Of a stretch of DNA of 64,000 bases, positions 46,992-62,101 are shown piece by piece. The notes beneath the pieces are model-generated. The model ran no database searches and was not told the DNA's origin. It worked only from the letters and a program-made list of their open reading frames with translations. The position numbers and the translations under genes are program-made. Each line of letters opens with the position of its first letter. Within the stretch, counting starts at the first letter, position 1. Source of the DNA: Planctomycetota bacterium (GTDB taxonomy: Bacteria; Planctomycetota; Planctomycetia; Pirellulales; Lacipirellulaceae); NCBI GenBank assembly GCA_029259915.1, contig JAJDED010000061.1:124001-188000 (forward strand), in the 5' to 3' direction.

Positions 46992-47178
46992 CAGGGACTA
47001 GTGCTAGATGCACTCCCAATCGCCCCGCATCCGAATGGGACGTTTATAACGGATGCTCCACGGAGCAGTCTCAATTCTGGCCCACGCTCTGGCGTACTTT
47101 CTCGTCCGTGGGCCGTGCGCACAGAGCGTAACGTAAGTTTTCAAAACATACTTTCATACGTTTTGGAGACGACCGACG

Positions 47179-48147
47179 ATGCCGCAAAACCGACCCCTGT
47201 TGGAAAACTGGACCCCTGAACTTTCCGCCCGCATGGACAAAGCGATCTTTGTCGCCCAGCACCGGCTCCACGAGCTGGATCTGTTCAACGACGATCGGCT
47301 GGTGGAATTGCTCGATCGGCATCCGCGTGAGTTCTTGGTCATCAACACCATGGGCACCGATCCCACAAAGCCTGCCGAGTGGCAAGAAGGGCGCGCGGGA
47401 AACCTCGATGCCGAGCAGTTGTTTGAATCCGTCCAGCGAGGCCGTGTGTGGTTGAATCTCCGTCGGGTGATGGATCATCACTCCGAGTACGCCAATTTGG
47501 TGAACAATTTGTACTCGGAACTAGAAGCCGAATGCCCGGGACTGTTGACATACAACCGCTCGGCCAATTTGCTGATTTCCTCACCCGGGGCGATTGTTTA
47601 CTGTCATGTCGATTGCCCGGTGAACATGCTCTGGCACTTACGTGGCAAGAAGCGTGCGTGGGCCTATCCGCTAGAATCTGGCGTCGTATCCGACGACTCG
47701 ATCGAAGGAGTTGTCAGCAGCACAAAGCCAGAGGAAGTGAATTTCCGACCCGAGTGGGACAATCTGGCCGCCGTCTACGACCTCAACCCAGGCGAAATGG
47801 TCACCTGGCCGCAGCACACGCCACACCGAGTGGTTAACACCGAAGGCGTGAACGTCTCGCTTTCCACCGAACACATGACGCGCGCCGCCGCACGTCGCAA
47901 CAACGTGTTTTTGGCGAACAACCATTTCCGAAAAATGTTCCCCGGTGATTTCCGCTCGACAGAGCTAACCGGCTGGCGTCCCGCGGCGAAGGAATTCGTG
48001 CTACGCATAATGCGCCGCATCCCACCACTGGCCCCCACACCGCCAACGGGATTCAAAACCCCGATCACGTTTGAAGTGGACCTCGACGCCCCCGACTGCA
48101 TCCGCCAGTTAGAAGAATCGGATCACCGCGAACCGGTACTCCAATAA
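47179..48147 (+). CDS. Cupin/JmjC-like 2-oxoglutarate-dependent oxygenase
   Basis: A 322-residue protein. YCHVDCPVNMLWHLRGKKR carries the HxD iron-binding pair of a JmjC/cupin barrel, and TWPQHTPHRVVNTEGVN provides the distal His. Such enzymes hydroxylate proteins or small molecules using Fe(II) and 2-oxoglutarate; the substrate here is unknown. The last 42 codons plus 18 bp of downstream DNA are present again, diverged, at 53151-53299, 5.1 kb downstream. Confidence 0.65.
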   Translation: MPQNRPLLENWTPELSARMDKAIFVAQHRLHELDLFNDDRLVELLDRHPREFLVINTMGTDPTKPAEWQEGRAGNLDAEQLFESVQRGRVWLNLRRVMDHHSEYANLVNNLYSELEAECPGLLTYNRSANLLISSPGAIVYCHVDCPVNMLWHLRGKKRAWAYPLESGVVSDDSIEGVVSSTKPEEVNFRPEWDNLAAVYDLNPGEMVTWPQHTPHRVVNTEGVNVSLSTEHMTRAAARRNNVFLANNHFRKMFPGDFRSTELTGWRPAAKEFVLRIMRRIPPLAPTPPTGFKTPITFEVDLDAPDCIRQLEESDHREPVLQ

Positions 48148-48165
48148 GGCGTGTTCTGACAAACA
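48016..48165 (+). repeat. Copy 1 of a 150-bp direct repeat: 3' end of the oxygenase gene
   Basis: This matches 53151-53299 with about 12 substitutions and one single-base gap. The match covers the last 42 codons of the oxygenase gene and runs through AAGGCGTGTTCTGACAAACA past the stop. Together the copies bracket a 5-kb block of minus-strand genes. Confidence 0.8.
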
Positions 48166-48249
48166 GGTCCCGCGCGGTCGCTGGACCCGGGGAGCGTTCT
48201 ATGTGGATTGTAGGCTGAGACCTTGCAGTAGGCTGATCTCATCGCGTAT

Positions 48250-48357
48250 TTATTTGTTCTTCTTTTCCTTTTTCAATTTTCGCTTCTCCTTGGGACTAAG
48301 TTGGGCCTTTTTCTGTTGCTCTTTCTTCCCTTTGTCTTTGCTTCCTTTGTCACCCAT
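48250..48357 (-). CDS. Very small Lys-rich protein
   Basis: 35 residues starting at ATG 48357, with AAGGAG 8 bases upstream. It begins MGDKGSKDKGKKEQQKKAQL, and nearly half the residues are Lys. The strong ribosome site supports translation. Short basic proteins with this MGDKG start occur in many bacteria without known function; I state this from memory. It lies 41 bp after the CDP-alcohol transferase gene on the same strand. Confidence 0.6.
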   Translation of the reverse strand: MGDKGSKDKGKKEQQKKAQLSPKEKRKLKKEKKNK

Positions 48358-48398
48358 AGCTGCTTCTCCTTGATTAGTGAACCTTCTTGCCGACTCGG

Positions 48399-49079
48399 TC
48401 AGGAAACTCCTAACGATTCTTTTGTACTGCCCAGAATGATCGCCGTTGCTAGCGAAACCAGATAAGAAATCACAAAGCAACCTGCAATAACAGATGTGGT
48501 GCTGGGGACCAACCAAGCAACTAGTAGCGTAACATTTAACAGACCAATGGCAATGCCAGACTTTGTCATACCACGGATCAGATATGGCAACTTGTAGGGC
48601 ATGAGCATTGTCACGGCATGCAACAAGAATGCGATTATTAGATAAGGCGTTGCGCTGAATTTGAAGATGTTCGCCAACAGAAGAACGAACAAGGTGTGGC
48701 GGACCAATTCATTTGTCGGAGAACCCATCCCTGCGACATGGCTAGGAACAAGTCGACTCACACTACGCACTACGATTGCCGCTACGCCAATCAGGCTGGC
48801 AACGACACAAGCTCCTCCGAAGTGCATTCCAACAACCATTACGAAAACACTATGCGCGATCGAGTCGCAGACGTTGTCCAATAAAGCTCCGAACTCACTC
48901 CTGATATTCAACTTTGCAGCCAATACGCCATCTAAATCATCCATCACATTGCTGTAGATCATCAGCGGGATTAGGTACCGGTAACCGCCTTCTTGAAAAA
49001 GCAGGCATATTGGTAGCACCCCAAGAATAGAAACGGCATTGGCCAGATTCTTATATAAAAAGTTACTCCGCTTGTGCAT
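48399..49079 (-). CDS. CDP-alcohol phosphatidyltransferase family protein
   Basis: A 226-residue membrane protein with about six helices. MDDLDGVLAAKLNIRSEFG and then ALLDNVCD match the DxxDGxxAR...GxxxDxxxD signature, with Lys in place of the usual Arg. The family displaces CMP from CDP-activated alcohols to make phospholipids or di-inositol-type phosphodiesters. The gene lies 11 bp after a cytidylyltransferase-like gene that could supply the CDP-activated substrate. Substrate not assigned. Confidence 0.75.
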   Translation of the reverse strand: MHKRSNFLYKNLANAVSILGVLPICLLFQEGGYRYLIPLMIYSNVMDDLDGVLAAKLNIRSEFGALLDNVCDSIAHSVFVMVVGMHFGGACVVASLIGVAAIVVRSVSRLVPSHVAGMGSPTNELVRHTLFVLLLANIFKFSATPYLIIAFLLHAVTMLMPYKLPYLIRGMTKSGIAIGLLNVTLLVAWLVPSTTSVIAGCFVISYLVSLATAIILGSTKESLGVS

Positions 49080-49090
49080 TGATGAACTAC

Positions 49091-49852
49091 CTAGACGGAT
49101 TTCCTTGGGAAGATCAACTCGGCTTGGTGGAGATCTTCTAACGTGTCAACTTCGTACCATCGCCCGCTATCAAACATGACCGCCTCAAGTGAGAGGCTCC
49201 CATCAGCGACCATTTCTGAAAATACAGTCTCGTAGTATTCATTCACTCGCCCCGCACACACGTGCGCCGATAAACGCTCCACGACGCGATCCCACGACGC
49301 GATCGTGAAGCTATACATGTTGACGGTTTTGTGAGTGACTGCGTCCAACGATTCGGAATCACCGAACTGGAAAGCGGAAATCTGTTGAAACGGATCGACT
49401 GTAACTGTCGTTCCATCCATCCACTGTTCCATCGTCGAGATGGCAATCTTGTTGGGCTGCAACATCTCGCCTAACAGCGAGGCCTCGAACACGACGTCGC
49501 TTTCGACCAACAGAAAAGGCTCATGAATGGTAGTGCGAGCCAGCCACAGAGAATACAAGTTGTTGGTGGTCGAGTAGCGAGGATTGATGACGTACTCGAT
49601 CGTCAGGACCTCGGCCCAATCATCAAGAAATTCACGAACATGGTGGTCCAGGTAGCCGACAACCACTACCAGTCGCTCGAAGCCTTGATCACACAAGCAA
49701 TGAACCAGGCGTTCGAGAATGGCAATGCCGTTCACCTCGGAAAGACACTTGGGGGCGTTGTTGGTCAGCGGCTGAAGTCGGCTTCCAGTGCCGGCGGCGA
49801 GTAGTACTGCGGTCGTTATTTGGTTGCTATTTGTGTTGGCCATAGCCTCCAT
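49091..49852 (-). CDS. Sugar/choline-phosphate nucleotidyltransferase family protein
   Basis: A 253-residue protein with the nucleotide-binding loop VLLAAGTGSRLQPLTNNAPK, LLVESDVVF (metal-binding Asp) and a C-terminal WYEVDTLEDLHQAE. The form is typical of LicC-like phosphocholine or inositol-phosphate cytidylyltransferases. Followed by a CDP-alcohol transferase gene, it suggests a two-step route: CTP activation of a phosphorylated head group, then transfer to a lipid or alcohol acceptor. ATG 49852 is used; ATG 49843 is possible. Confidence 0.7.
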   Translation of the reverse strand: MEAMANTNSNQITTAVLLAAGTGSRLQPLTNNAPKCLSEVNGIAILERLVHCLCDQGFERLVVVVGYLDHHVREFLDDWAEVLTIEYVINPRYSTTNNLYSLWLARTTIHEPFLLVESDVVFEASLLGEMLQPNKIAISTMEQWMDGTTVTVDPFQQISAFQFGDSESLDAVTHKTVNMYSFTIASWDRVVERLSAHVCAGRVNEYYETVFSEMVADGSLSLEAVMFDSGRWYEVDTLEDLHQAELIFPRKSV

Positions 49853-49990
49853 TCTTCGATGACAGTCGATACTTGCATTCCATAAGATGAACCTTTGAGC
49901 GAGTTACACTCCAATGACGACAGGGGATCACAATATTTCCAAATCCTTCACTTCTGCACTCCGCTTTAGCCCACATAAGACGTTATTGTT

Positions 49991-50242
49991 TTAAGTGCCA
50001 TGAGGATTTCTCTTCGGAGGCGATTGTAGTTGGTCAATCACTTGGCGAACTCCAGAGACGCTCTTAATTGCCTTTACGATCGAATTCCTTTGGTTTTCGT
50101 ACTGCAGCTTGCCTGAAAGAGTGACCGTGCCACGCTGTACGGCAGCTGTGACCTTTGATTGCGAACCAGTGCCGGTACGAACCAAACGCCGATTCACCGT
50201 CTTCAACAGAGCTTGATCGGGGACTTCATTTGTTCCAAACAT
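49991..50242 (-). CDS. BON domain protein
   Basis: An 83-residue product (ATG 50242, AGGAC upstream; a ten-residue extension was discarded). A single BON domain spans most of it: VNRRLVRTGTGSQSKVTAAV, then VTLSGKLQYENQRNSIVKAI. No signal peptide or transmembrane helix is seen, unlike envelope BON proteins such as OsmY, so it is probably cytoplasmic. BON domains bind phospholipids or small ligands. Confidence 0.75.
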   Translation of the reverse strand: MFGTNEVPDQALLKTVNRRLVRTGTGSQSKVTAAVQRGTVTLSGKLQYENQRNSIVKAIKSVSGVRQVIDQLQSPPKRNPHGT

Positions 50243-50390
50243 GTTCTTTTGTCCTGGGCTTAAAAAGTACAACGCTGCACGGAAGAGAACGACGTTCGGG
50301 ATGAGGAACTACCGTTCCAAGTTTGTCCAATAACTTGGGACAGTCTGTCACAAGTCAGATGACTCACGATAATGTGCCAACATGTAATAA

Positions 50391-50588
50391 TCATTTTTCA
50401 TTTTCGAGCTGTTTCTTCTTGACCATTGCCTTCTTGGCAGCGGCAAGACGTGCTTGTCGTGGAGCATCCGCTTGCGTCACGGCGCACTGGGGATGAATGC
50501 CGTTTGAGGAGTACGACGAGTGACCACAGATTGGACAGATATTTCGCTCTGACTGTGGGATGAGAGGTATTGGTTTTTTGTTACTCAT
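50391..50588 (-). CDS. Small zinc-binding hypothetical protein
   Basis: 65 residues with CPICGHSSYSSNGIHPQC, a Cys2-His-Cys type zinc site, followed by a basic helical tail (RQARLAAAKKAMVKKKQ). It may bind nucleic acid. No good ribosome site precedes ATG 50588. Function unknown. Confidence 0.55.
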   Translation of the reverse strand: MSNKKPIPLIPQSERNICPICGHSSYSSNGIHPQCAVTQADAPRQARLAAAKKAMVKKKQLENEK

Positions 50589-50617
50589 AGTTATTACTGG
50601 ACGCCATTAACAGGAAC

Positions 50618-50815
50618 TCAACGTTTACTTTTTTGACACGTTTCTTGATGCAGGCTGCGAATCTCCTCCAGCTCCTTCGAGAATCGCAAACGCAACGGAC
50701 TTTCCGGGCTCAACTGGTCGACTAGCGACTCCGCCTCTGCCAGCATTGAAGGCGTAATTGTCTGGCCACTAAAGAGTTTCTGCCATAGTCGAGTTGCGTC
50801 ACGTTCGTCCATCAT
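50618..50815 (-). CDS. Small helical hypothetical protein
   Basis: 65 residues (MMDERDATRLWQKLFSGQTI...), charged and helical, with LRFSKELEEIRSLHQ at the C-terminal end. No cysteine motif, no membrane segment and no family match. It is on the same strand as all other genes of this block, spaced 29 bp from its downstream neighbour. Confidence 0.45.
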   Translation of the reverse strand: MMDERDATRLWQKLFSGQTITPSMLAEAESLVDQLSPESPLRLRFSKELEEIRSLHQETCQKSKR

Positions 50816-50864
50816 CTAGGGTCTCTCTGGTAACAAGGATTTCGTTCAGGAGATTGGATCACAA

Positions 50865-51320
50865 TCAACGGGCGGGAAAAAAGGAGTCTCGCACCGCAGA
50901 ATCGAGGCAACACAACACCATCCTGCTTCCTTTGTGTCGTAAGTGTTTGTCGAATGAGACAAGTGTGTCGATGGAGGCAGTGGAAAACGCGTTTAGGCCA
51001 GTAAAGTCCAACAGGACTTTGCTGCCGATAGCCAACTTATCTGTGAGTTTTGCGAAATCTCTTCGGAGTTCACTCGTAGTATCATCTGTAAAGCCCTGAG
51101 ACTTCTTAAACCCAACATGCGTCACGCTTGCTGACTGAGATGCATCTAGAAACTCAAAGTCCCAAGACTCTGAGAATTTTGCCTGTATAGCGGGACTAGC
51201 TGTTTTCGGCTTGAGCGCACTGACAGCTTCGTCACGGAAGTCGTACATTTCGAAAATTCTATGGGGGTACTTTGCCACGTTGTGTTTCTCTTTCTCTTTG
51301 TGCGTTGCGTCCGAAGACAA
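50865..51320 (-). CDS. STAS-domain protein (anti-sigma antagonist-like)
   Basis: A 151-residue product. After about 60 residues of variable N-terminus, the segment SKVLLDFTGLNAFSTASIDT has the strand-Asp-Ser pattern of STAS domains; the Ser/Thr-Ser pair is where SpoIIAA-type proteins are phosphorylated. DKHLRHKGSRMVLCCLDSAV follows. STAS proteins relay partner-switching signals. No kinase or sigma gene lies nearby. Confidence 0.6.
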   Translation of the reverse strand: MSSDATHKEKEKHNVAKYPHRIFEMYDFRDEAVSALKPKTASPAIQAKFSESWDFEFLDASQSASVTHVGFKKSQGFTDDTTSELRRDFAKLTDKLAIGSKVLLDFTGLNAFSTASIDTLVSFDKHLRHKGSRMVLCCLDSAVRDSFFPAR

Positions 51321-51456
51321 TTGCTCTTGGATTCAACGGAGACGTCTTTGCCAAGACTTCAACAATCTTTGAGCGATTGCTCTGCATTATGCGACAGGCT
51401 AGTGGATGCTCTGTGGAAGCGTCGGAATTCGCCTTACGCAAACTGCTTATGGGTGG

Positions 51457-51714
51457 CTACTCATCCGAGTCGCCTTCTGTTTCCCACGCTTGATTAGCGC
51501 GGAAATTATCCGGCACCTTCATGTTGGCCTCAGAACGGCTGTCTTGTCGTGCTGGAAACACAACTCGGTTCAGCAATTCGGTACGTAGAACAGGGATTTC
51601 CCTGGGAGCGTCAATACCAATGCGCACCGAGGTACCGCGAATCTCTAGCACTGTCACGAAAACATTGTTACTGATCTGTATACTTTCCTGCTGCTTTCGG
51701 CTTAAAATGAGCAT
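51457..51714 (-). CDS. csrA: Carbon storage regulator CsrA
   Basis: An 85-residue protein. The first 55 residues are canonical CsrA: MLILSRKQQESIQISNNVFV, VTVLEIRGTSVRIGIDAP and REIPVLRTEL. CsrA dimers bind GGA motifs in mRNA leaders and control translation. The C-terminal 30 residues are a charged extension. A strong site (GGAGGAG) precedes the ATG. Its presence in an accessory block rather than with flagellar genes is unusual. Confidence 0.92.
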   Translation of the reverse strand: MLILSRKQQESIQISNNVFVTVLEIRGTSVRIGIDAPREIPVLRTELLNRVVFPARQDSRSEANMKVPDNFRANQAWETEGDSDE

Positions 51715-51741
51715 TTTCTCCTCCGTGTGTGTGGGATGTGC

Positions 51742-52092
51742 TCAGTGTTTCTGTGTGTTACTCTTGCGGGTTCGGGACTCCATCTTGGCAAGTTTTTGCT
51801 TGGCCATCGTCCTGACATTCACGATCACCATCGCACCGTCCATTGCCAATATGGCGTCCAGATCGTCAACTCCTTTTGCATCGTCCCCAGCCGCTACATA
51901 CACGAGTGCCCGGTTATAAAGGGCCATCGCTATCACTTCGGCCGGAACTCCTGCCAACTCAATAGCGGTTGTGTAGTTGGCTAAGGCGCCTTCAAAGTCG
52001 CGCCTCTTAGCCCGCGCTATGCCTCGTTTGTAATTCCACAACGCCTTATGACGCGCAGAGAATCCACTTTTGAACCAGCCAACGACGTTCAT
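51742..52092 (-). CDS. Tetratricopeptide-repeat protein
   Basis: A 116-residue protein with at least two TPR units: GIARAKRRDFEGALANYTTA and ALYNRALVYVAAGDDAKGVD. A basic tail ends it. TPR proteins serve as adaptors. It lies 4 bp after 52097-52351 on the same strand and 27 bp before csrA, so these genes are probably one operon. Confidence 0.75.
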   Translation of the reverse strand: MNVVGWFKSGFSARHKALWNYKRGIARAKRRDFEGALANYTTAIELAGVPAEVIAMALYNRALVYVAAGDDAKGVDDLDAILAMDGAMVIVNVRTMAKQKLAKMESRTRKSNTQKH

Positions 52093-52096
52093 CTAT

Positions 52097-52351
52097 TTAC
52101 GCTACTTCCTCCAGCGAATGATCCAAAGCGAGCCTCACGCCCGGTATCGCGGTTAGGAGACTCTCCAATTTCCGCTGAGACAACTGCGACCCGTGGGCCA
52201 CGCAGAAGGTACAGTAGGCGGGTAGTTCCGCCTCCTGAATTGGCTCACTTGTCCTGAAAACGAACGACTCGCTGAGACGGTCAAGGACCCATCGTGCGTT
52301 TTCAATGCCTGCAACACGAATGCGGCAAGCATATCCCTCGTGCCTAATCAA
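52097..52351 (-). CDS. Small hypothetical protein upstream of the TPR gene
   Basis: An 84-residue frame from TTG 52351; the start is not well supported by a ribosome site. The sequence (NARWVLDRLSESFVF, PAYCTFCVAHGSQLSQRKLE) is balanced and looks folded, with Cys-x2-Cys at about residues 47-50. Its end lies 4 bp before the TPR gene. No family is recognised. Confidence 0.5.
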   Translation of the reverse strand: MIRHEGYACRIRVAGIENARWVLDRLSESFVFRTSEPIQEAELPAYCTFCVAHGSQLSQRKLESLLTAIPGVRLALDHSLEEVA

Positions 52352-52401
52352 GACAGCAAATTCGGTAACTGCACTCGTTCTAGGCCTTTTCTTTCTTTAT
52401 T

Positions 52402-52917
52402 TCACTTTGCCGCAGAGGACTGGCTGACAATAGCTGCTTCCAAATCCTTGCAACGTTGGCTTACCGAACGGTACGGCATGCTCTCTTCGAGTCGATAGCG
52501 CTCTGCGCGAACGAACCAGAGCGACAGGCCTCCTGTGTTATGAGCAGGCAACTGTGGCGATGGCTGGGCACGAACGCCTAGCGAGCCCTTCCTGCCGGTT
52601 TTCTGCCAGCCGCGACGTTCCATGATCATGCGGACCAAAACGCCTATCGCCTGCCGCAATCGCTGAGTCTCACGGGCATGAACTGCAGAAAAGTATGCAT
52701 GGACGGCGGGCTGTGATTCGAGCTCCCGCACAACGCCAGCTAGTGGCGACCGGTCGTGGTGAATCTCCGCATCTTCCATACGTTGTTGTCGATCTGCGTC
52801 ATTAAAAAATGCGAGCACTTCGTCAAACGGTTGCTCTGTGTCATTAACTACATCCGCAAAGGTCCTTCCCTGCTTATCTTTGAGGAAGTCTTCTCGAGTC
52901 ATGGTGACTTTTGGCAT
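52402..52917 (-). CDS. Hypothetical protein, first gene of the minus-strand block
   Basis: 171 residues from ATG 52917 (MPKVTMTREDFLKDKQGRTF). The longer frame reaching 53235 reads backwards through the oxygenase repeat and was discarded. The N-terminal 90 residues are helical and acidic (EQPFDEVLAFFNDADRQQR). The C-terminal part has Arg-rich and Ser-rich segments (MIMERRGWQKTGRKGS). No family is recognised. A promoter-like pair sits about 55 bp upstream. Confidence 0.55.
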   Translation of the reverse strand: MPKVTMTREDFLKDKQGRTFADVVNDTEQPFDEVLAFFNDADRQQRMEDAEIHHDRSPLAGVVRELESQPAVHAYFSAVHARETQRLRQAIGVLVRMIMERRGWQKTGRKGSLGVRAQPSPQLPAHNTGGLSLWFVRAERYRLEESMPYRSVSQRCKDLEAAIVSQSSAAK

Positions 52918-52972
52918 TTGTTTTCGTCTCGGAGAAGAGGCTATAAGAGATAAAAGTAATGTAGCTACATAA

Positions 52973-53000
52973 ATTGTACCTGCAAAATACGTAATTGCAA
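52973..53000 (-). promoter_or_regulatory. Candidate promoter of the minus-strand accessory block
   Basis: On the minus strand TTGCAA (52995-53000) and TACAAT (52973-52978) are 16 bases apart, about 55 bp upstream of the 52402-52917 gene. The surroundings are AT-rich. Confidence 0.35.
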
Positions 53001-53150
53001 GGTCAATATGTCCAGTATTATGGGGGAGATCTTGTTTTCTAGGGAAAAATAGGCCTGATCGACTGTCGACCGCTTTGCAAACTGGGCGATGTTGGGCCGC
53101 TGAACGGCCCCGCCTCCGACGTCGAGGGCCGTTTGAGCCTTGCTCGCAGT

Positions 53151-53299
53151 CGCATCCCCCACTGGCCCCCACACCGCCAACGGAATTCAAAACCCCAATC
53201 ACGTTTGAAGTGGATCTCGACGCCCCCGACTGCATTCGCCAGCTAGAAGAATCGGACCACCGCTGACCGATATTTCAATAAGACGTGTTCTGACAAACA
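53151..53299 (+). pseudogene. Truncated, diverged second copy of the oxygenase gene 3' end
   Basis: The segment encodes PTPPTEFKTPITFEVDLDAP and ends at TGA 53264-53266, a few residues earlier than the full gene. It matches 48016-48165 at about 91%. Through the shared 33-residue reading frame most differences are silent third-base changes, as expected for two genes that diverged under selection before this copy lost its 5' part. Nothing upstream of 53151 resembles the oxygenase gene. Confidence 0.7.
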
Positions 53300-53443
53300 A
53301 GCTACGGTCTTGTCTTAGCGCTGAGTAACGAACGCAACTAATGGAGGTGGGGGCAGCCCAACGCTCGAAAAAATTACTCAAAGTGCATTCGGTCTGGCCC
53401 ACCGAATGGACGAACTCTCAGGTGCGAAAACGCACCGGTGTTT

Positions 53444-53481
53444 CACGGGTATGACGTTTTAGTCTCCCAAAAATCTTCTTC
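53444..53481 (+). repeat. 38-bp direct repeat, left copy
   Basis: It begins CACGGGTATGACGTTTTAGT and ends ATCTTCTTC, identical to 58056-58093. It lies 231 bp upstream of the helicase start (ATG 53712). Confidence 0.9.
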
Positions 53482-53588
53482 GAGGCAAGTAGGAATCCGC
53501 ACAGGTCGATTTATCCTGTGCCGATTCAGAAGTGCTGCATCATCAGGCCAGCTTTTCCACTGGCAAACGCCAACGCCGCGTTACGTAC

Positions 53589-53618
53589 TTGAGGTAAGCT
53601 GCGGCCAACCGCTAGAAT
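53589..53618 (+). promoter_or_regulatory. Candidate promoter of the SF1 helicase gene
   Basis: TTGAGG (53589-53594) and TAGAAT (53613-53618) are 18 bases apart, inside the left repeat boundary. Confidence 0.45.
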
Positions 53619-53650
53619 AGGCAGCCTGCTTATAGGAGGACTCCTTCAAT

Positions 53651-53695
53651 ATGCAGGGCTTACTGAAGAAATATCTGTATAATCCTTGTGCCTAA
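53651..53695 (+). CDS. Possible 14-codon leader peptide before the helicase gene
   Basis: ATG 53651 has AGGAGG about 10 bases upstream, the only strong ribosome site before the helicase, and encodes MQGLLKKYLYNPCA. Its TAA overlaps an ATG (TAATG) opening a six-codon frame (MPIQHS). The stop of that frame overlaps the helicase ATG 53712 (ATGA). This chain could deliver ribosomes to the helicase start or regulate it. It could also be the true N-terminus separated by a frameshift. Confidence 0.35.
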   Translation: MQGLLKKYLYNPCA

Positions 53696-53711
53696 TGCCA
53701 ATACAACACTC

Positions 53712-56700
53712 ATGACTTTGGAAACCAACTTGGACGCGATTAAGATAGAAAGCCCTGAGCGATCAAAGCTCATCCGTCTTGTTGATTACTTGACACGGCT
53801 GGCATCCTTGCGCTCCAAGACAATTCATGATATTTCCGATTATGAGCATACCCTCTGGATTTCTTCCATCCCGCACGAAAAAGGCTGCTTCACACAAGCG
53901 TGGGGGCGTGACGAGGAATTTGATTCCGATGTTTGGGTGGAAATTCAGAATCAGAGAGAACCCGAGTTGCCAAGTGTGCCTGAGAAGTGTGAAGACTGGG
54001 TTGAGAGAAGTTCGCTACGCAACAAAGAGGATCTACCTGAACTCTTGCCAAAAATCACGATAGAGGTTGATAATCCAAACCGGGAGGAAGGGAGCGACAA
54101 GCCAGAATATATCTGGCGGACTGAGCTCCTTCAGGATCATCCCGAAGTTCGACAGGCTTGGGATCGTTATGTTGAAGGCCAATGGCTTCCCTGGATGGAA
54201 GAACACAATCGGTGGGAAAGCATCCATGGGGTATACTCCGCGCTATTCGCCATCCACCAGGAGCAGATTCGACTTGGCGAGGAATATGAGTTGGTCCTTG
54301 GGCTTGGACTCCTCACATGGAAGACGCCGAATGGTCAGCGGGTATGTCGTCACCTGATTGTCGCCAATTCGCTCCTTGAATTCGAGGCGCGTTTGGGCAA
54401 ATTCACCGTCGGTCCAATGTCGGATGGCGCAGATGTTCGCCCCGAACTCGACATGCTGGACATTGAGGAACGCCCCGCGCGTGCTGAGGAAACGGCGAAG
54501 GCTTCATTGTCCGAGAGCACTGATAATCCGTGGGAGAAGGATTGTGTTGAAGGCGTGCTGCAAGCCTTAGTGCATTCGATCAATCCGCAAGGCGAATATG
54601 GTGACACCTTGGAAAAGAAAGGGGTTCGGGCGTCCGACAAACCCGTCGTTGAATACTCACCAGCCCTCATGCTCCGCAAACGTTCCGGCAAGGGCCTTAC
54701 CGAAGCCCTGAAGATAATCAAGGATGGCATCGAACAGGGTGGAGAGATACCCCCGGAATTCGGTGACCTTGCCGAGATTCGTCCGAGACGAGATCAAGAT
54801 TCGGATGACAACCCACCCGACGGGAACAGCGAGTTAGACGGCGAGGTCTTCTTTCCAAAGCCATCGAACGAAGAGCAACGGCGCATCGTTGACAAGATTC
54901 GGGCCGCCAGCGGTGTTCTTGTGCAAGGTCCGCCCGGCACGGGAAAATCTCACACTATTGCGAACCTCATCTGTCATCTGTTGGCAACGGGCCAGCGGAC
55001 ACTCATCACGGCCAAGACGCCGCGTGCGCTTCAAGTTCTCGAAGGACTCGTCCCTGAGGAATTGCGGCCCCTCTGCATCAATCTTCTTGGCAGCGGCCTT
55101 GAAGAAAGACGGTCGCTTGAAACCAGTGTTGGCGGCATTCTCCGCAAGAATGAGGAATGGAACGAAGACCGCGCCGAACAAGAGCGTACAGATTTTGAAA
55201 AACAACTCCGAAATCTCCGTGAAGAGCAGGCCAAGTTCGATCGAAAGTTACGTGACATCCGAGAATCTGAAACGCATACGAAAACTGTAAACGAAACCTA
55301 TAAAGGTACAGCAGCCAGAATCGCCGAAGCTGTCGAGCGCGACCGATGCGAATATGATTGGCTAATAGACGATGTTCCGTTGAATAAGTCTTGTCTCGTC
55401 ACAGTGGACGATATGCAGAAAGTGATTCGCATTCTTCGGGAAACCACTCCGGAAAGACAACAAGAACTGAGTCAGAAATGGCCTGGTCCCGATAGCCTAC
55501 AGTCTCCTGGTGATTTCACAAAGCGCGTACGCCAATGGAATAAGGCTTTGGAAGATGAAAAAACGGCCCAGGAGAGCCTGCCAATTATTAAACAATGGCG
55601 TCTGAAAAAAGCACGTGCAAGCAAACGCGAATGTGAAGAAGAATTGCAGTGCTGCGAAGATGAGGTATTGCTGCATGAGAGCTCGCATGAGCAAACACAT
55701 CCAGTCTACCATGATTTGATTCGGGCAATTCGCGAGCGCGATATAGACGCTTACGCAAACGCTATAAACCAGGTGAAATCTCTAACACACGATCGCAATT
55801 GGCTTCGCAAAGTTGATGAGTGGCTTAATAAGATCGGCAATGTCCTCCCGGAAATGGCTGCAGGGTTGAAGCAGTCCCCTGGAGACGCTAGTTGGGATCA
55901 CCGTGTGCAGCAAATCCAGAATGCCTGGCGTTGGGCACAGGCACGGTATTGGGTCGAGGAATATATACAAAAAGAAGACGTTCCAGCACTCGCCCAGCGA
56001 GCCAAGCAGATTGAGGACGAGATCAACACCACTATTGCGAAGCTTGCGTCGCTTCATGCCTGGTCGTTCTGCTTTTCCCGACTTGAAGAAGGCCACCGCC
56101 GTCACATGGAAGCTTGGCAGCAGTCAATGCGGCGGCTTGGTAAGGGAACAGGAAAACATGCGCCCCGCCATCGGCGCGAGGCTCAACAGCATCTCAACGA
56201 ATGCCGTGAGGCAGTTCCGGCCTGGGTCATGCCTTTGCATCGCGTTTGGGATACCATTGAACCCGCCCCAGGGATGTTCGATCTCATCATTGTTGACGAG
56301 GCGTCGCAATGTGGCGTGGAGGCGCTTCCGCTTTTCTATCTTGGCAAGAAGGTGTTGATTGTTGGGGATGACAAACAGATTAGCCCGGATGCCGTTGGTT
56401 TGCCTCGTAATGCGGTGCAACAACTAATGAATCAGTTCCTTTACGATTTTCAGTTCGCATCGTCATTCGATGTGGAGAGCAGCTTGTTCGACCACGGAAA
56501 ACTTCGTTATGGAACACGACGGGTTACTCTACGCGAGCATTTCCGCTGTATGCCGGAAATCATCCGGTTCAGCAATGATCTTTGCTATTCGGACACGCCG
56601 TTAATCCCACTTAGGCAATACGGCCCGGATCGTTTGCCGCCGATTGAACACATCTTCGTGGATGGCGGCTATCGGGAAGGAAGCAGCAATCGTGTAGTCA

Positions 56701-57917
56701 ACAAACCTGAAGCCGATGCTATTGTCGCAAGAATTTGTGAAGTGTGTGAGAGCAGGCAGTATACAGACAAGACGATTGGTGTAGTTGTTCTGCAAGGCGA
56801 AGCACAAGGAGCCTTGATTGAGAAACAATTGCTTGAGCTGCTGGGTGCTGAGGAAATGGAGAATCGCCGCCTTGTCTGTGGTAATCCCTATAGTTTTCAG
56901 GGCGATGAACGCGATATTATGATTCTGTCAATGGTGGCCGCTGGGAATGAGCGGATCGGTCCGTTCACTAAACCGGCAGATGAAAGACGTTTCAATGTGG
57001 CGGCAAGCCGCGCCCGTGATCAGATGATCTTGTTCCATTCGGTATCGAGTGACGGCCTGAGCCCATCATGTCTCCGACGGCGATTGCTTGAATTCTTCCA
57101 AAATACTACGCCGCAAGAGATTGCCGGTATTGAGCGGGATGAATTTGAACGGCGTGCATCACAAGATAATCGGCGTGTTGTGGATCCTCCCGATCCATTT
57201 GATAGTTGGTTCGAGGTTGATGTCGCTCTGGTACTGATACGCAAGCATTTCACTGTCATCCCTCAGCACGAAGTTGCGGGTAAACGAATCGACCTCGTGG
57301 TTGAGGGTGGTCAAGCACGATTGGCAGTCGAATGCGATGGCGATAGGTGGCATGGTGCCGAGCAATATGAGGCGGACATGCAGCGTCAGCGGCAGTTGGA
57401 ACGTTGCGGCTGGGAGTTCTTCCGGGTAAGCGAAGCAGCCTTCTATTCAAACGAAGAGGATGCGTTGACACCTCTCTGGCGAATGCTCGAAGATAGAGGC
57501 ATTGTTCCCGGCGGCGGCGCAACAACTGACAAGAACAGAACACCAGATAAGCACAACAGCGACGACGACAATTACGGTGATGCAAACGACAATGGCAATG
57601 TGCAAGATGGCCAAGGACCAGCCCCAGGCAATGGCGCTCCGAATACCCAATCCCGGCGGCATCCGGAAGAAGTCTCCTCCCAAGAGATTTCAGACGCGAT
57701 TATCAATGCCCTGAAAAAATGTCCGAATCATTCCTGCACATTGCATTCCTTGACAAGCCGCGTCCTCAAAGAAGTAGGTGTGCTCACTCGAGGAAAACCG
57801 CGCGCGAGGTTCGAAAGGCGAGTAAGCCGAATGACCAATTCTCTTTGCGAGAAGGATCGAATTGAGAAATACAAAGCCAAAAATGAGCGTGTTCGATTAC
57901 TGCAAAAGATGGCCTGA
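53712..57917 (+). CDS. SF1 (UPF1-like) helicase fused to a Vsr/MTES-type nuclease, putative defence protein
   Basis: A 1401-residue protein from ATG 53712 (GTG 53688 is possible). Residues 1-340 form an N-terminal region without a recognised domain. The helicase follows: Walker A GPPGTGKS (about 406-413), a long coiled-coil insert (about 470-830), DEAS (862-865), GDDKQISPD (885-893), LREHFRCMPEIIRF, and motifs V/VI in FQGDERDIMILS and NVAASRARDQ. A PD-(D/E)XK domain with RIDLVVEGG and VECDGDRWHG (Asp about 1194, Glu about 1207) fits Vsr/REase_MTES nucleases. After an Asn/Asp/Gly linker, the last 75 residues look winged-helix. Related helicase-Vsr proteins (for example the DUF4011-helicase-Vsr type) are known anti-phage factors, but this N-terminus differs. 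Flanked by 38-bp repeats. Confidence 0.8.
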   Translation: MTLETNLDAIKIESPERSKLIRLVDYLTRLASLRSKTIHDISDYEHTLWISSIPHEKGCFTQAWGRDEEFDSDVWVEIQNQREPELPSVPEKCEDWVERSSLRNKEDLPELLPKITIEVDNPNREEGSDKPEYIWRTELLQDHPEVRQAWDRYVEGQWLPWMEEHNRWESIHGVYSALFAIHQEQIRLGEEYELVLGLGLLTWKTPNGQRVCRHLIVANSLLEFEARLGKFTVGPMSDGADVRPELDMLDIEERPARAEETAKASLSESTDNPWEKDCVEGVLQALVHSINPQGEYGDTLEKKGVRASDKPVVEYSPALMLRKRSGKGLTEALKIIKDGIEQGGEIPPEFGDLAEIRPRRDQDSDDNPPDGNSELDGEVFFPKPSNEEQRRIVDKIRAASGVLVQGPPGTGKSHTIANLICHLLATGQRTLITAKTPRALQVLEGLVPEELRPLCINLLGSGLEERRSLETSVGGILRKNEEWNEDRAEQERTDFEKQLRNLREEQAKFDRKLRDIRESETHTKTVNETYKGTAARIAEAVERDRCEYDWLIDDVPLNKSCLVTVDDMQKVIRILRETTPERQQELSQKWPGPDSLQSPGDFTKRVRQWNKALEDEKTAQESLPIIKQWRLKKARASKRECEEELQCCEDEVLLHESSHEQTHPVYHDLIRAIRERDIDAYANAINQVKSLTHDRNWLRKVDEWLNKIGNVLPEMAAGLKQSPGDASWDHRVQQIQNAWRWAQARYWVEEYIQKEDVPALAQRAKQIEDEINTTIAKLASLHAWSFCFSRLEEGHRRHMEAWQQSMRRLGKGTGKHAPRHRREAQQHLNECREAVPAWVMPLHRVWDTIEPAPGMFDLIIVDEASQCGVEALPLFYLGKKVLIVGDDKQISPDAVGLPRNAVQQLMNQFLYDFQFASSFDVESSLFDHGKLRYGTRRVTLREHFRCMPEIIRFSNDLCYSDTPLIPLRQYGPDRLPPIEHIFVDGGYREGSSNRVVNKPEADAIVARICEVCESRQYTDKTIGVVVLQGEAQGALIEKQLLELLGAEEMENRRLVCGNPYSFQGDERDIMILSMVAAGNERIGPFTKPADERRFNVAASRARDQMILFHSVSSDGLSPSCLRRRLLEFFQNTTPQEIAGIERDEFERRASQDNRRVVDPPDPFDSWFEVDVALVLIRKHFTVIPQHEVAGKRIDLVVEGGQARLAVECDGDRWHGAEQYEADMQRQRQLERCGWEFFRVSEAAFYSNEEDALTPLWRMLEDRGIVPGGGATTDKNRTPDKHNSDDDNYGDANDNGNVQDGQGPAPGNGAPNTQSRRHPEEVSSQEISDAIINALKKCPNHSCTLHSLTSRVLKEVGVLTRGKPRARFERRVSRMTNSLCEKDRIEKYKAKNERVRLLQKMA

Positions 57918-57982
57918 CAAGGCGCTGCACCGGACGGCAATTCCGCTGTGCTCCATTGCCGCCGTGAGCTTGGTCGTTAGAC
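57912..57982 (+). other. attC-like (integron cassette recombination) site
   Basis: GCCTGAC (57912-57918) and GTTAGAC (57976-57982) are positioned as the outer core sites. Between them AAGGCGCTGCACCGGACGGC and GCCGTGAGCTTGGTC form the imperfect stem, with an inner GGCAAT/ATTGCC. The 3' part GTGAGCTTGGTCGTTAG has the form usual for attC sites of chromosomal integron cassettes. The 5' core has GAC instead of AAC, so the site may be degenerate. The helicase stop TGA (57915-57917) lies inside it, as in gene cassettes. Confidence 0.55.
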
Positions 57983-58055
57983 CGGTCTCAAAACTGCATT
58001 AGTTCCCCTTGTCCAAGCAGTTTTCGGCCTCGCCACGAAAGTCACACAGGACCGA

Positions 58056-58093
58056 CACGGGTATGACGTTTTAGTCTCCCAAAAATCTTCTTC
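58056..58093 (+). repeat. 38-bp direct repeat, right copy
   Basis: Identical in all 38 positions and in orientation to 53444-53481. It lies 74 bp after the attC-like site. The rest of the 450-bp gap holds no convincing gene. Confidence 0.9.
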
Positions 58094-58367
58094 TGGGAAA
58101 AATCGGCAATCTGAGATGTTATGGGAGAAGGTCTTACACTCTTCCCCCCATCAGGAGAACTCCGATGCTTCATTATTCCCGAACGAGTCGTCGTAGCAGT
58201 CGAAAATCGAAGCCTCGTCCGTATCAGTTCTACACAGAAGCAAAAACACCCAGGCGAGTGAAATGACGCTAAGAGAGATAGACCGCGGGTCCAAATGCCG
58301 CACCCAACTTCCAGCTTGGATGGCTCCAGGATGTCGCTCACTCGGAAACCCAGTCGCACTGCCCCGA

Positions 58368-58865
58368 TCAACGATCCGTTGTATGCGCGGCCATCGTAGT
58401 ATGGGCATCGCCGACTTGAGCGGTTTGCTTGGTCACCAGCGGATAGACGCGTTGGGCAAAGCTTTTCGCGTCGACAAAACCTTCCATAAAATCGAGCACT
58501 TCTCCCTGGGGAGAAACTAGCAGCGTAGAAGGATAGCCACGGACGCCCAATTTCTTTACCAAGCCGCGGTAGTCCCGGGCGTGGGCGAGTACGGTTTCGG
58601 TATTCTCGCTCAGCATTTTATGAATCGACGGATTCAGAAAGGTTTCCGCTTCCATCTTGCGGCAATACACACAGCCATCGGTGGTAAACATCACCAGCAT
58701 GGGCTTCTGTGCCGAAATTGCGGAACTCCACCCAGCTTCGATCGTGGCATGCTTGAATGGGGTGTGCCCCGGATTGGCGGAGCGTCGCCCCGACTGGGCG
58801 TTCGCTTCCGATCCGTTGGCCACTAACAACACAAGTGTAAAAACCCCCAGCAATGCAGATTTCAT
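58368..58865 (-). CDS. Secreted thioredoxin-fold protein (CVYC)
   Basis: ATG 58865 with AGGGA 8 bases upstream gives 165 residues. A signal peptide (MKSALLGVFTLVLLVANGSE, cleavage near ANA/QS) precedes a thioredoxin-like domain: PMLVMFTTDGCVYCRKMEAE, and GVRGYPSTLLV containing the cis-Pro loop. It probably reduces, or forms, disulfides in the periplasm. The neighbouring gene 59036-59554 is a paralogue. Confidence 0.82.
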   Translation of the reverse strand: MKSALLGVFTLVLLVANGSEANAQSGRRSANPGHTPFKHATIEAGWSSAISAQKPMLVMFTTDGCVYCRKMEAETFLNPSIHKMLSENTETVLAHARDYRGLVKKLGVRGYPSTLLVSPQGEVLDFMEGFVDAKSFAQRVYPLVTKQTAQVGDAHTTMAAHTTDR

Positions 58866-59035
58866 AGGATATTCCCTAACGTGAACGGGTGATGTTTCGC
58901 TAGCACCGCCGCCTGTGCCATCAACACAGTTTCCTGCCAGCATAACCAATTATCGGAAGCGGCCGGCTGAAAGACTGTGAAGCACACTACAAAGTCACGG
59001 AATCTGCTCGCTAAAATGTCAGCAACAAGGCGCGA

Positions 59036-59554
59036 TCATCGGGTTTGTGTCGATGATTCGCTTGATGCCAGGTCGAGCTGGAGGCGTTTTTGAAACGTCT
59101 TCGCGTCGACATAGCCTTCGATCACGTCCAACACCTTGTTGTTCGCTCCCACTAAAACCGTCGTGGGATACCACTTGATCTTGAGATTGCTAACCAAAGT
59201 GGGATGCGAATGTCGGTTGACGTGCAACGTCTCAAAGGAATTCGACACCATCTCTTCCACCATCGGTGCATGATAGGTTTCGTCGATCATCTTCACACAG
59301 TGGGGACACCCCGACATCGAAACGTAGAGCAAAATCGGGCGATTGCTGCCTTGCGAGGCAGTCCATGCGTCTGGATAACTTGCATGTTGGAACAGAGAAA
59401 CTTTTTTACTTGCCGTGCTGGTCGTCGACACGTTGGTTGCCGAGACAGACTCTTTCTCAGATAGATCCGGTACACTCTCTGCAAATAGAGAGTTCGCTGG
59501 AAAAACGATTAAAAGAAAAACATGAACTGTAATTCGCGCGCAGTAATTACCCAT
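59036..59554 (-). CDS. Secreted thioredoxin-fold protein (CPHC)
   Basis: ATG 59554 follows GGAGGT at 8 bases; the 93 residues upstream in frame were discarded. 172 residues: a signal peptide (CARITVHVFLLIVFPANSLF, cleavage near FAE/SV), a Ser/Thr linker, then PILLYVSMSGCPHCVKMIDE and IKWYPTTVLVG. The active-site CPHC matches DsbA-like and thiol-disulfide exchange proteins. It shares FMEGFVDAKSF / VIEGYVDAKTF with the neighbouring paralogue, so the pair arose by tandem duplication. Confidence 0.82.
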   Translation of the reverse strand: MGNYCARITVHVFLLIVFPANSLFAESVPDLSEKESVSATNVSTTSTASKKVSLFQHASYPDAWTASQGSNRPILLYVSMSGCPHCVKMIDETYHAPMVEEMVSNSFETLHVNRHSHPTLVSNLKIKWYPTTVLVGANNKVLDVIEGYVDAKTFQKRLQLDLASSESSTQTR

Positions 59555-59789
59555 GCCGTGATACCTCCGCAAGAGGGCCGGTCGTTCTGAACTTTGAACT
59601 TTTTTGCTTCTCCTCGAATATCGGCATGTGCAAGCACTCGAGGGCCCAGGAATTCTGGCGGCACGGAGATTCGGAACGATGGCCCCATGCGCACGTTCCC
59701 GTAGCCAGAACGCCGTCGTTACAACCGGGAAAACCCGGCGTGCATAGATAGGCGGGCAGACAAGACCGAAGTGCTTACCGAGAAAGCGG

Positions 59790-60338
59790 TTAGACAGCCA
59801 CACCCATGTCGCGTGCCTTTTGCACGCCGACAAAACCAGAGTGCGCTTTCAGACAGGTCCGCTTAAAAGCTTCCGGGTGCGGGACCCCCGATAGACGGAA
59901 GGTCTCGATCTGTCCGTTGCGAAAAATAAGATCCCCAGCCGGGTACCACCCCTGCCCTGGCAGGACATCGATTTCAACCGAATCGAATCGGTCGAGCGAT
60001 ACACTTTGCTGTTCCCCCCCCCCGAAGGCCTGTTCGACCACCACCCGGCGATTGGTCAACTGATAGCGCCGACAGCCTGGATTGGAAGCTCCCAAAAACA
60101 CAAACGGCAGACGGGGAATCAGCATGTGAAAATAAATAGGCAACACAAACGGAATGGAAGCCAGCGCCACCAGTCGGCCCACCGTAATCGGAATGCCAAA
60201 CAGCGTGATCCCCAGCTTGTTCTCGAACCGACGACCCCACCAACGACCATACGCCGTCGCCGCAATCGAGGGCCAAACGGTCATGATCGTGGTTTCCTGC
60301 TGCCGGTCGGAAACAACTCCTGCAATGGCTTGGGCCAT
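59790..60338 (-). CDS. Bacterial PH-like (bPH2) membrane protein
   Basis: A 182-residue product; ATG 60338 is preceded by AGGTGA. One or two hydrophobic segments (LVALASIPFVLPIYFHMLI) lie in the first half. A PH-like beta domain follows: YQLTNRRVVVEQAF, SVSLDRFDSVEIDVLPGQGW and DLIFRNGQIETFRLSGV. bPH2 proteins are envelope-associated and of unknown biochemistry. Confidence 0.7.
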   Translation of the reverse strand: MAQAIAGVVSDRQQETTIMTVWPSIAATAYGRWWGRRFENKLGITLFGIPITVGRLVALASIPFVLPIYFHMLIPRLPFVFLGASNPGCRRYQLTNRRVVVEQAFGGGEQQSVSLDRFDSVEIDVLPGQGWYPAGDLIFRNGQIETFRLSGVPHPEAFKRTCLKAHSGFVGVQKARDMGVAV

Positions 60339-60492
60339 CTCGTCACCTGTTTTTATTTATTGGTACTGGAAAAATGCCTTTCGGGCTTCGGCCAAGCGTA
60401 CCAAAGCCGTTTGCCATTGGCTAGTGCGTGCCGCGGAGACTCGCTAGAAGCGGCAAAAAGCCTAAACGCAGATTCCGCAGATTCTCGCAGAA

Positions 60493-60798
60493 TCAATTCT
60501 GACTGAAGTCGAGATGGTGCGCAGTCGGCCGAGCTAGAGGATTCTTCACGTATTTTTTCCGGCACTCGCTACACAGATCGTAGCGTGCATGGTGATAAAC
60601 ATCGTCGCCGATTTGTGGGTCTTGCGCATCATCCATCCGTTCCAAAATCTCTTGGACTTCTTGAAGATGGTCGCGCTCGTCCTGCAATTCGTCTTCAACC
60701 GGATCGAGCGACGCATAAACTTCAAGCCGAACCACATAACGAAGCTCGCTCTCAGGATCAATTTGACGTTTACAGCTATCGCACGTGTAGTGAATCAT
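60493..60798 (-). CDS. Zinc-ribbon hypothetical protein
   Basis: 101 residues from ATG 60798 (GTG 60801 precedes it; AAGGAA upstream). CDSC (about residues 6-9) and CSEC (about 76-79) form a split four-Cys zinc site, with an acidic helical middle (VEDELQDERDHLQEVQEILE). It resembles conserved planctomycete small zinc proteins of unknown role. Confidence 0.65.
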   Translation of the reverse strand: MIHYTCDSCKRQIDPESELRYVVRLEVYASLDPVEDELQDERDHLQEVQEILERMDDAQDPQIGDDVYHHARYDLCSECRKKYVKNPLARPTAHHLDFSQN

Positions 60799-60801
60799 CA
60801 C

Positions 60802-61468
60802 TCGGTTTCCTTACAAAACGCCTTGAACCAATTTCAAATAGCTCTTGGCATTTAACTGCTCTGAGGACTCCCCGTGCAAACAGCGCCGCAGATCGGCGCG
60901 TAGCACCCATGGGTTCATCCTAGCGAGAAGCAATCACCCGGGGCAAGAGAAACTTCGCCCGTTTTTCATTCAAACTTTTTATTCTGAAATAGGGGTGATT
61001 ATTTTTTACTAGGCCATAGTTTTGTACAAAAATCACACATCAGGCAAATACCATGCCTAGAACAATTTCGCCCTCGCCTAACTTATGTAACTACCAAGAA
61101 TGAGACAAAAATAAGAATGCGATAAAGCTGAAATCTGCAATAAGTTGCGGTTCTCGCGTGAGTTGCATGAATTGTCTGCTGGTTTTATTCTTTTTTGCAG
61201 GTTAAAATAGAGGTGTCCCTAAAAAGACATTCCGTAAGGTTGGATCACTCCTCAGACTTATGGGCTGGTTCAGCGTACGGTTTCGGGTCGGTTGCGCGAA
61301 AAAATTCCGCAGTCCGATCTGTCGGGTTCTTTATTGCGCCGGTGGCCTTGATGCGTTCTCGGCTAAGGGACTTGATGCGCAATTTCACCACGATCCCTCT
61401 CGGCCGCTTGCGGCTTAGCGGCATAAGCAATTCAACTCGATGCAAAGGAACACAGAAGGGTAACTGCA
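60802..61468. other. 667-bp AT-rich intergenic region before the HNH gene
   Basis: No convincing gene. The plus-strand frame 61195-61653 runs into the HNH gene in another frame and has no family look. TTGCAT...TATTCT with 17-base spacing near 61163-61191 could be a promoter. A CCGCTTGCGGCTTAGCG repeat lies at 61403-61420. Confidence 0.4.
61403..61420 (+). repeat. Copy of the GCCGCTTGCGGCTTAGCG repeat
   Basis: Part of the dispersed family, 49 bp before the HNH gene. Confidence 0.5.
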
Positions 61469-62101
61469 ATGTCGACCGCTCCCGTAAGTGGCCTCAACGC
61501 AAGTGTCTTAGTGCTCAATCGCCATTACATGGCTGTGCACGTGGTCGGAGTCCGGCGAGCGTTCGGTTTATTGCTCAACCAATTGGCCGAGGTGATTCAC
61601 ATCGAAGATGGCCAATACGGCAATTACGATTTCCAATCGTGGCGAGAGATTAGCGAACTCCGAGCCGAATTCAAAGAACCTGAGGAAGATTGGGTCCGCA
61701 GTGTAAATTTCGAAGTCTGTGTTCCTCGCGTGTTGCGATTATTGTACTACGATCGTTTACCCAAGCAGCGGGTGCGATTGAATCGTCGTAACATTTTTGC
61801 CCGCGACGGGAATCTTTGCCAATACTGCGGCAAGCGGTATTCCACTAGCGAATTGAGCCTCGACCATGTCGTGCCGACTTGCCGGGGTGGCGGAACCAGT
61901 TGGGAAAACCTCGTCTGCGCGTGCGTCAAGTGCAACGTCCGCAAGGGGGGAAGAACTCCCAAGCAGGCGGGCATGAAACTGATCTGCAAGCCAGTGCGTC
62001 CCAAACGGAGCCCCATGCTCACCGTCAAATTGGGCAATCCAAAATACGCCAGTTGGAAAACTTTCCTCGACACCGCCTACTGGTCAGTCGACCTGAAGTA
62101 A
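61469..62101 (+). CDS. HNH endonuclease family protein
   Basis: A 210-residue protein. The C-terminal HNH module has CQYC, SLDHVVPTCRGG (catalytic His), SWENLVCACVKCNVRKG and a second Cys pair, giving four zinc ligands. The N-terminal 90 residues (VLVLNRHYMAVHVVGVRRAF, FEVCVPRVLRLLYYDRLPKQ) are characteristic of a conserved bacterial HNH family often found in the chromosome core. DNA target and role are unknown. Confidence 0.85.
   Translation: MSTAPVSGLNASVLVLNRHYMAVHVVGVRRAFGLLLNQLAEVIHIEDGQYGNYDFQSWREISELRAEFKEPEEDWVRSVNFEVCVPRVLRLLYYDRLPKQRVRLNRRNIFARDGNLCQYCGKRYSTSELSLDHVVPTCRGGGTSWENLVCACVKCNVRKGGRTPKQAGMKLICKPVRPKRSPMLTVKLGNPKYASWKTFLDTAYWSVDLK

Follow-up and report, generated by a model that had tools for sequence, protein, structure and literature searches.

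The 64,000-nucleotide window analysed here, positions 124,001–188,000 of contig JAJDED010000061.1 from a Planctomycetota bacterium (assembly GCA_029259915.1), carries on its forward strand a single gene that encodes an SF1 helicase and a nuclease in one polypeptide, which the original prediction, made from this DNA alone, had proposed as a candidate anti-phage system. The open reading frame (ORF) extends from a GTG at 53688 to 57917 (1409 residues), and the ATG at 53712 (1401 residues, same end) is the preferred start because the stop-to-stop frame of the closest homologue, L031, opens five codons upstream of the matching methionine; the gene limits first proposed are thus retained. The protein begins with an uncharacterised N-terminus; next come a UPF1-like SF1 helicase, which carries a helical insert, and a Vsr-type nuclease (MTES_1575), joined by a low-complexity linker to the tail. 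Its matches above the Pfam cut-off include AAA_11, AAA_12 and MTES_1575, with none starting before residue 391 and with neither DUF4011 nor DUF3320 among them.

The helicase core is nearest to Setx, Dna2, UPF1 and Sen1 in both sequence and fold (the PDB comparisons were run on homologues), and its assignment as a UPF1-like SF1 helicase follows from the motif strings, the Pfam matches and these PDB matches; motifs II, III, V and VI are named as is usual for such helicases. The nuclease scores 92.4 bits against a Pfam cut-off of 38.2. For the full-length comparison, 61 ORFs meeting a length rule (60 homologues and the window protein) were taken from 109 loci, with partial homologues excluded and with L002 and L047, which are the same gene, represented by L047. 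All 60 homologues have the Asp of IDL and the final Asp of ECDGD, and at least 90% of them have the Glu, so that both the Pfam score and the conserved acidic residues, which we presume to be catalytic, place the domain among the Vsr-type PD-(D/E)XK nucleases. The presence of both enzymes in one protein, and of an intact Asp and Glu in the nuclease, had been read correctly from the single sequence. The window protein keeps 197 of the 201 near-invariant columns (those common to at least 57 of the 60 others), and the four lost residues all lie in gaps of the insert module described below, with none lost in the nuclease or elsewhere outside the module.

This module sets the window copy apart from the rest of the family. 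In the aligned region (residues 560–700) the window protein has 141 residues, whereas the 60 other full-length homologues have 336–419, 52 of them 361–367; the insert is about 220 residues shorter than in its relatives, all 60 of which keep the long module. The gene matches L031 with 87.4% DNA identity over gene positions 10–1715 and 90.2% over positions 2205–4227, and blastn found no DNA similarity between these two stretches, where 489 bases of the window occupy the place of 1149 bases in L031. The proportion of synonymous differences (pS) between the two genes is 0.79 in the module, compared with 0.23–0.37 in the five larger surrounding regions, 0.41 in the linker and 0.14 in the tail, and the guanine–cytosine (GC) content of the replaced stretch is 0.477, against 0.52–0.53. 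The short stretch is in frame at both ends, and its edges align at 29–41% with the edges of the normal module, with the gap confined to the centre. The copy in the window is a mosaic, in which a short foreign module has replaced the normal one. A simple deletion is rejected, since DNA similarity to L031 is also missing from the 163 codons that remain.

In 46 close pairs of non-window homologues the ratio of module to flank pS has a median of 1.05 (0.70–1.43), whereas the corresponding ratio for the window–L031 pair is 2.96, and the module as a general recombination hot-spot is therefore unsupported. The proportion of nonsynonymous differences (pN) in the module of the same 46 pairs is raised relative to the flanks (median 1.9; 1.2–3.4), against a ratio of 6.8 for the window–L031 pair. 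From these control ratios, the swap is peculiar to the window copy, and the fast amino-acid change of the module is general. Mean identity within the module is 0.39–0.74 per 25-residue bin in 25 non-window homologues, compared with 0.60–0.94 in the helicase and nuclease core, and a contact surface exposed to shifting pressure would be expected to change in this way. In the AlphaFold2 (AF2) model of the homologue L032 (mean predicted local distance difference test score, pLDDT, 85.5; predicted template modelling score, pTM, 0.61), in which the relative placement of the domains is uncertain because the pTM is only 0.61, the module is helical, without any strand as long as three residues, and is flanked by two long-helix stretches, both retained in the window copy. 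The coiled-coil insert of the original prediction thus exists as a helical insert, but its shortened and foreign centre had been missed because a single sequence could not show it.

Table 1. Features of the helicase–nuclease gene and its surroundings (window coordinates)
Feature	Coordinates	Strand	Basis
Helicase–nuclease gene	53712..57917	+	ORF and Pfam; start choice from L031
N-terminal domain, aa 25–385: long helix, then three strands; weak DUF4011-like likeness at core	53760..54842	+	Pfam, PDB, AF2, hhalign
Walker A / motif I GPPGTGKS, aa 414–421	54927..54950	+	Motif string; AAA_11
Predicted long-helix arm 1 of insert, about aa 471–527, present in window copy	55098..55268	+	AF2 model of L032 mapped by alignment
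Replaced module, 489 nt	55403..55891	+	blastn boundaries, homologue lengths, pS
Predicted long-helix arm 2, about aa 743–798, present in window copy	55914..56081	+	AF2 model of L032 mapped by alignment
Helicase motifs II (DEASQC, aa 870) and III (GDDKQISP, aa 893)	56295..56387	+	Motif strings
Helicase motifs V (YSFQGDE) and VI (RRFNVAASRARD)	56889..57020	+	Motif strings; AAA_12 aa 930–1116
MTES_1575 / Vsr-type PD-(D/E)XK nuclease, aa 1175–1267	57210..57488	+	Pfam E 1.9e-26; acidic positions conserved
Low-complexity Asp/Asn-rich linker	57510..57662	+	Among least conserved stretches
C-terminal tail, aa 1326–1409, winged-helix-like by inspection	57663..57914	+	Absent or short in some homologues
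Accessory stretch, about 10 kb	48150..58440	.	Same-genus loci L130, L131, L134 (of six fetched)
Left direct repeat, truncated copy of ~170-nt element	53444..53488	+	Repeat comparison, same-genus loci
Right, longer copy of same ~170-nt element	58056..58226	+	Repeat comparison, same-genus loci

The window copy could be a crippled allele, from which recombination removed a sensing module and which is heading for loss. The length of its module, far below that of all 60 full-length homologues, and the four near-invariant residues lost with it are what such an allele would show, and split or broken copies do occur elsewhere in the family (for example L038, L091 and L102, each in several ORFs). However, the frame is open over 1409 codons, nearly all near-invariant columns are retained, and the ratio of nonsynonymous to synonymous substitution rates (dN/dS) between the window gene and L031 is 0.09–0.27 in all seven regions outside the module, which is purifying selection, although this value covers all of the divergence from L031, including what preceded the swap. 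A crippled allele is on this evidence unlikely, though with a probability far from negligible. The swap could also be an assembly chimera of two homologues co-occurring in a metagenome bin. The genome is fragmented (64 contigs), the foreign stretch is sharply bounded and lower in GC, and the source of the short module, or any second copy of it, was not found in 382 genomes of the phylum, in plasmids or in viral contigs; the five genomes of the phylum that did match were its own, two with ordinary homologues (32–36%) and two with weak matches containing stops. The preserved frame and the alignment of both edges with those of the normal module, with the gap in the middle, argue against a chimera, which we consider quite improbable.

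The N-terminus, for which the original prediction had recognised no domain, remains uncharacterised. Residues 25–392 match no Pfam family, the other 60 members show only scattered weak Pfam matches, each in one or two members, and a PDB sequence search gave 0 matches at E ≤ 1. The structure prediction proposed for this region gave a confident AF2 model (pLDDT 88, pTM 0.78), for which a PDB fold search found no match at E ≤ 0.001. A BFVD search gave as its best match a protein with an AAA domain from a Myoviridae contig (E 3.9e-3, prob 0.97, TM 0.27). When the N-terminus was compared by hhalign with 36 DUF4011 N-termini, a local score of 34.5 over 68 columns was obtained (P 0.001, probability 21%), with scores of 12–14 when one side was reversed; the score of 29.8 with both sides reversed tests nothing, because similarity survives such reversal. 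Global mode found no alignment between the two, and comparison with only eight DUF4011 N-termini gave a probability of 18% and an E-value of 0.0013. These profile alignments make a distant DUF4011-like origin possible. In 343 genomes of the phylum, 14 match the N-terminus, 8 of them in frames of 1416–1748 residues and the other 6 only in frames of 90–786 residues (fragments, a broken copy and contig ends).

Among known systems, the best PADLOC model for the window protein is the candidate system PDC-S37 (192 bits), a single protein of about 1600 residues with an SF1 helicase followed by an MTES_1575 nuclease, whose profile aligns to the window helicase, nuclease and part of the tail, reaching residue 1392. 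This bears out the likeness to DUF4011–helicase–Vsr proteins that had been suggested. In 294 genomes of the phylum, however, the best members score up to 1834 bits with this profile, compared with 130 for the window gene and 110–242 for six of its relatives, and the window protein falls outside the score range of PDC-S37. Its N-terminus is not DUF4011 by Pfam, unlike those of the two PDC-S37 members examined (DUF4011–helicase–MTES_1575–DUF3320), its tail has no Pfam DUF3320 match, and the genome of the window has no DUF4011 match at E ≤ 1e-10. The profiles of the DUF4011 anti-phage protein Hhe (NF042953) and of ProA (NF058533) align to the helicase–nuclease half at 138.2 and 193.6 bits, far below their cut-offs of 2000 and 1500, and the best stretch covers only profile positions 1262–1681 of 1797 (Hhe) and 1299–1712 of 1903 (ProA). 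The Mokosh proteins MkoA and MkoC share SF1 helicase similarity (71–134 bits), with best stretches in the helicase region only; the Mokosh nuclease is PLD-type. UPF1, Setx, Sen1 and Dna2 resemble the window protein in helicase core fold and sequence, but they are eukaryotic and differ in insert and nuclease arrangement, the nuclease of Dna2 being N-terminal. The MTES_1575-type protein reported in 2013 combines a HEPN domain, a transglutaminase, an SF-I helicase, a Vsr restriction endonuclease (REase) and two winged helix–turn–helix (wHTH) domains in one protein (PMC3710099); it thus shares the helicase, the Vsr nuclease and a putative wHTH with the window protein, which has no HEPN or transglutaminase family match and a different N-terminus. 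Since the two PDC-S37 members and this protein have the helicase, the Vsr nuclease and then DUF3320 or wHTH, the order that had been taken as new is already known, and only the N-terminal module differs. On sequence grounds, the window protein is in a sister family to the DUF4011–helicase–Vsr proteins, one that has its own N-terminus and goes unnamed in the libraries searched. The literature searched, which did not include the original Hhe report, contained no description of it.

The best 80 of 414 related stretches in named genomes correspond to 79 loci, with 39–81% identity in the best segment, and further relatives occur in other searched genomes of the phylum; the distribution is wide and patchy over distant bacteria. 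Counting its own genome, 6 of the 117 relatives searched have the gene at E ≤ 1e-40, and the 13 listed from the same genus give no match, a defence-like distribution that supports the original prediction. On a tree of the 61 full-length sequences, of which 53 carry a phylum label and the other eight are omitted from the count, 38 label changes were needed compared with 40.3 after shuffling, and 28 of 200 shuffles were as low. On this tree the window protein is sister to L031, whose bin carries the label Nitrospirae (support 99; identity 90% over 535 columns), although single placements are uncertain because bins can hold foreign contigs. Plasmid relatives were found in 40 records, all with less than 60% identity; 19 of the 20 listed match the helicase–nuclease half only, and the copy covering most of the query has an IS701 transposase gene inserted in it. 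The family looks mobile. Homologues are also carried by four IMG/VR contigs (L165–L168), one of them 74% identical. A homologue of 65–73% identity at G088:C1:1793436–1801126 is apparently broken: some 2 kb separate its two halves, and its nuclease part occupies a frame of its own that contains a stop.

The gene lies in a stretch of about 10 kb without counterpart in three same-genus loci, in agreement with the accessory location claimed before. With the cupin gene (47179–48147) as the left marker, the cupin-to-thioredoxin gap between matches is 158 and 260 bases in L134 and L131, compared with more than 10 kb in the window; in L130 no DNA match was obtained for the first thioredoxin gene, and 829 bases separate the second from the cupin gene. 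The stretch, including the helicase–nuclease gene, is taken as accessory because the cupin gene is close to the thioredoxin genes in these three loci. L132, L133 and L135 have the thioredoxin region and no cupin match.

No recurring partner gene was found: in an all-against-all comparison of the 305 neighbour ORFs of the 79 loci, no cluster occurred in more than three loci, and the gene accordingly appears as solitary as it had been described. For 218 of these 305 ORFs, the nearest two on each side where found (96 upstream, 122 downstream), PADLOC models were searched, with 130 randomly chosen of 207 ORFs from 23 stretches of 23 homologue genomes as a control and with the 25 families with most members listed for each set. 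The strongest matches listed include BrxH, Avs4, HEC-02A/B, PDC-S01, a type II REase and a methyltransferase upstream, and SoFic, PglZ, HEC-05, BrxA, AbiEi, AbiEii and PDC-M48/M66/M68 downstream; the 25 control families include methyltransferase models (MTase_II, oMTase, DruM, DrmMII) and RtcR. One ORF can match many models, as the E-values of BrxH, DrmD, DrmA and HmaA upstream are those of a single L039 protein. When eight large neighbours were scanned singly, a full-length Avs4 (upstream in L050) and BrxHI (L039) were the only clear defence genes. A distant plasmid relative lies near AbiEi/AbiEii and a GIY-YIG nuclease. The proposed survey of homologue contexts thus found defence genes (Avs4, BREX-3, AbiE, restriction–modification) at some loci and one fixed neighbourhood at three, and the contexts vary, with homologues not consistently in core positions.

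At L039:7052–16872 the homologue lies between BrxHI and a gene whose five matched plasmid relatives are annotated as BREX-3 PglZ, which raises the reading that the protein is a component of BREX-3 or another multi-gene system and does not stand alone. This arrangement occurs at one locus, however, the lack of any cluster beyond three loci speaks against a fixed set of partners, and a scan of ten window genes, with Pfam only, recognised no BREX gene; such a component is very improbable. Alternatively, the protein could be a housekeeping RNA or DNA helicase–nuclease acting in repair or R-loop removal and not in defence, a reading favoured by the resemblance of the core to Setx, UPF1 and Dna2, by the fixed neighbourhood in one Verrucomicrobia group and by the place of a DUF4011 gene among the core flanking genes of P. 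aeruginosa (PMC10250203). The patchy occurrence in relatives, the near-random phylum labels on the tree and the defence neighbours at some loci point the other way, and a housekeeping role is improbable.

The gene is therefore best regarded as probably encoding a stand-alone defence enzyme that spreads horizontally and belongs to an unnamed sister family of the DUF4011–helicase–Vsr proteins. In such an enzyme, the N-terminal domain and the variable helical insert module would recognise nucleic acid that is invading or aberrant, the motor, a UPF1-like SF1 helicase, would then use ATP to move along it, and the C-terminal Vsr-type nuclease would cut it, perhaps aided by the winged-helix-like tail; phage defence, the setting of the target by the module and activity of the window copy are what we infer. 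Several observations weigh against this explanation. We know of no functional assay for this family, SF1 helicases of UPF1-like type also act in RNA metabolism and repair, and loss of the normal module could be loss of function. PADLOC and NCBIfam give distant matches only, and almost no phage record contains the family (one of 50,697, with a weak partial match). The PADLOC models matched number 114 for the 96 upstream, 107 for the 122 downstream and 76 for the 130 control ORFs, but these are models and not ORFs, and the neighbour tallies are soft as evidence of enrichment. Apart from Avs4 and BrxHI, the eight large neighbours gave one weak CARF-type match and five no match. Downstream ORFs also match tRNA-(m1G) methyltransferase (3 of 122), ribosomal L19 and metabolic families, as well as phage integrase (3 of 122), and the three Verrucomicrobia loci have one fixed neighbourhood in common, probably beside a tRNA-(m1G) methyltransferase gene.

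A more specific proposal, which we hold tentatively and regard as doubtful, is that the family senses its target through an exchangeable helical module carried on the two long helical arms of the SF1 motor, and that the window copy is a natural swap, in which the N-terminus, motor, nuclease and tail come from one lineage and a short sensor from another. If this is true, a new target range would be gained in one recombination step, as with the specificity subunits of restriction enzymes. The scattered helicase–nuclease family, for which PADLOC offers no closer placement than a distant kinship with PDC-S37, offers a natural experiment in the window copy, a near-complete enzyme lacking module residues that all 60 full-length relatives keep, and comparison with its 87–90% identical full-module relative would reveal the role of the module.

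The direct repeats noted on either side of the gene were confirmed (a match of 35 out of 35 bases between 53447 and 58059, with 0 expected), but the 38–45 nt repeat at both gene ends is no proof of a mobile-element boundary, because it is part of an element of about 170 nt present elsewhere in the genus; the idea of an element bounded by this repeat is correspondingly weakened, and the repeat may have served as a substrate of recombination. The ~170-nt element contains a possible 33-codon ORF and occurs at several places in the genus (L136, L137, L138, L139), the L137 copy about 50 nt behind a tRNA-Ser gene. An Rfam scan of 45000–62000 gave only tRNA above the gathering score. In three Verrucomicrobia loci (L091, L093 and L094), three tandem related genes (374–418 residues) lie upstream of the homologue. 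A further direct repeat of 144 nt (48022–48165 and 53156–53299, 91% identical) flanks the block to the left of the gene, which contains CDP-alcohol phosphatidyltransferase and nucleotidyltransferase genes. It represents the 3' end of the cupin-like gene, duplicated beyond this block in a pattern such as the integration of a circle might leave.

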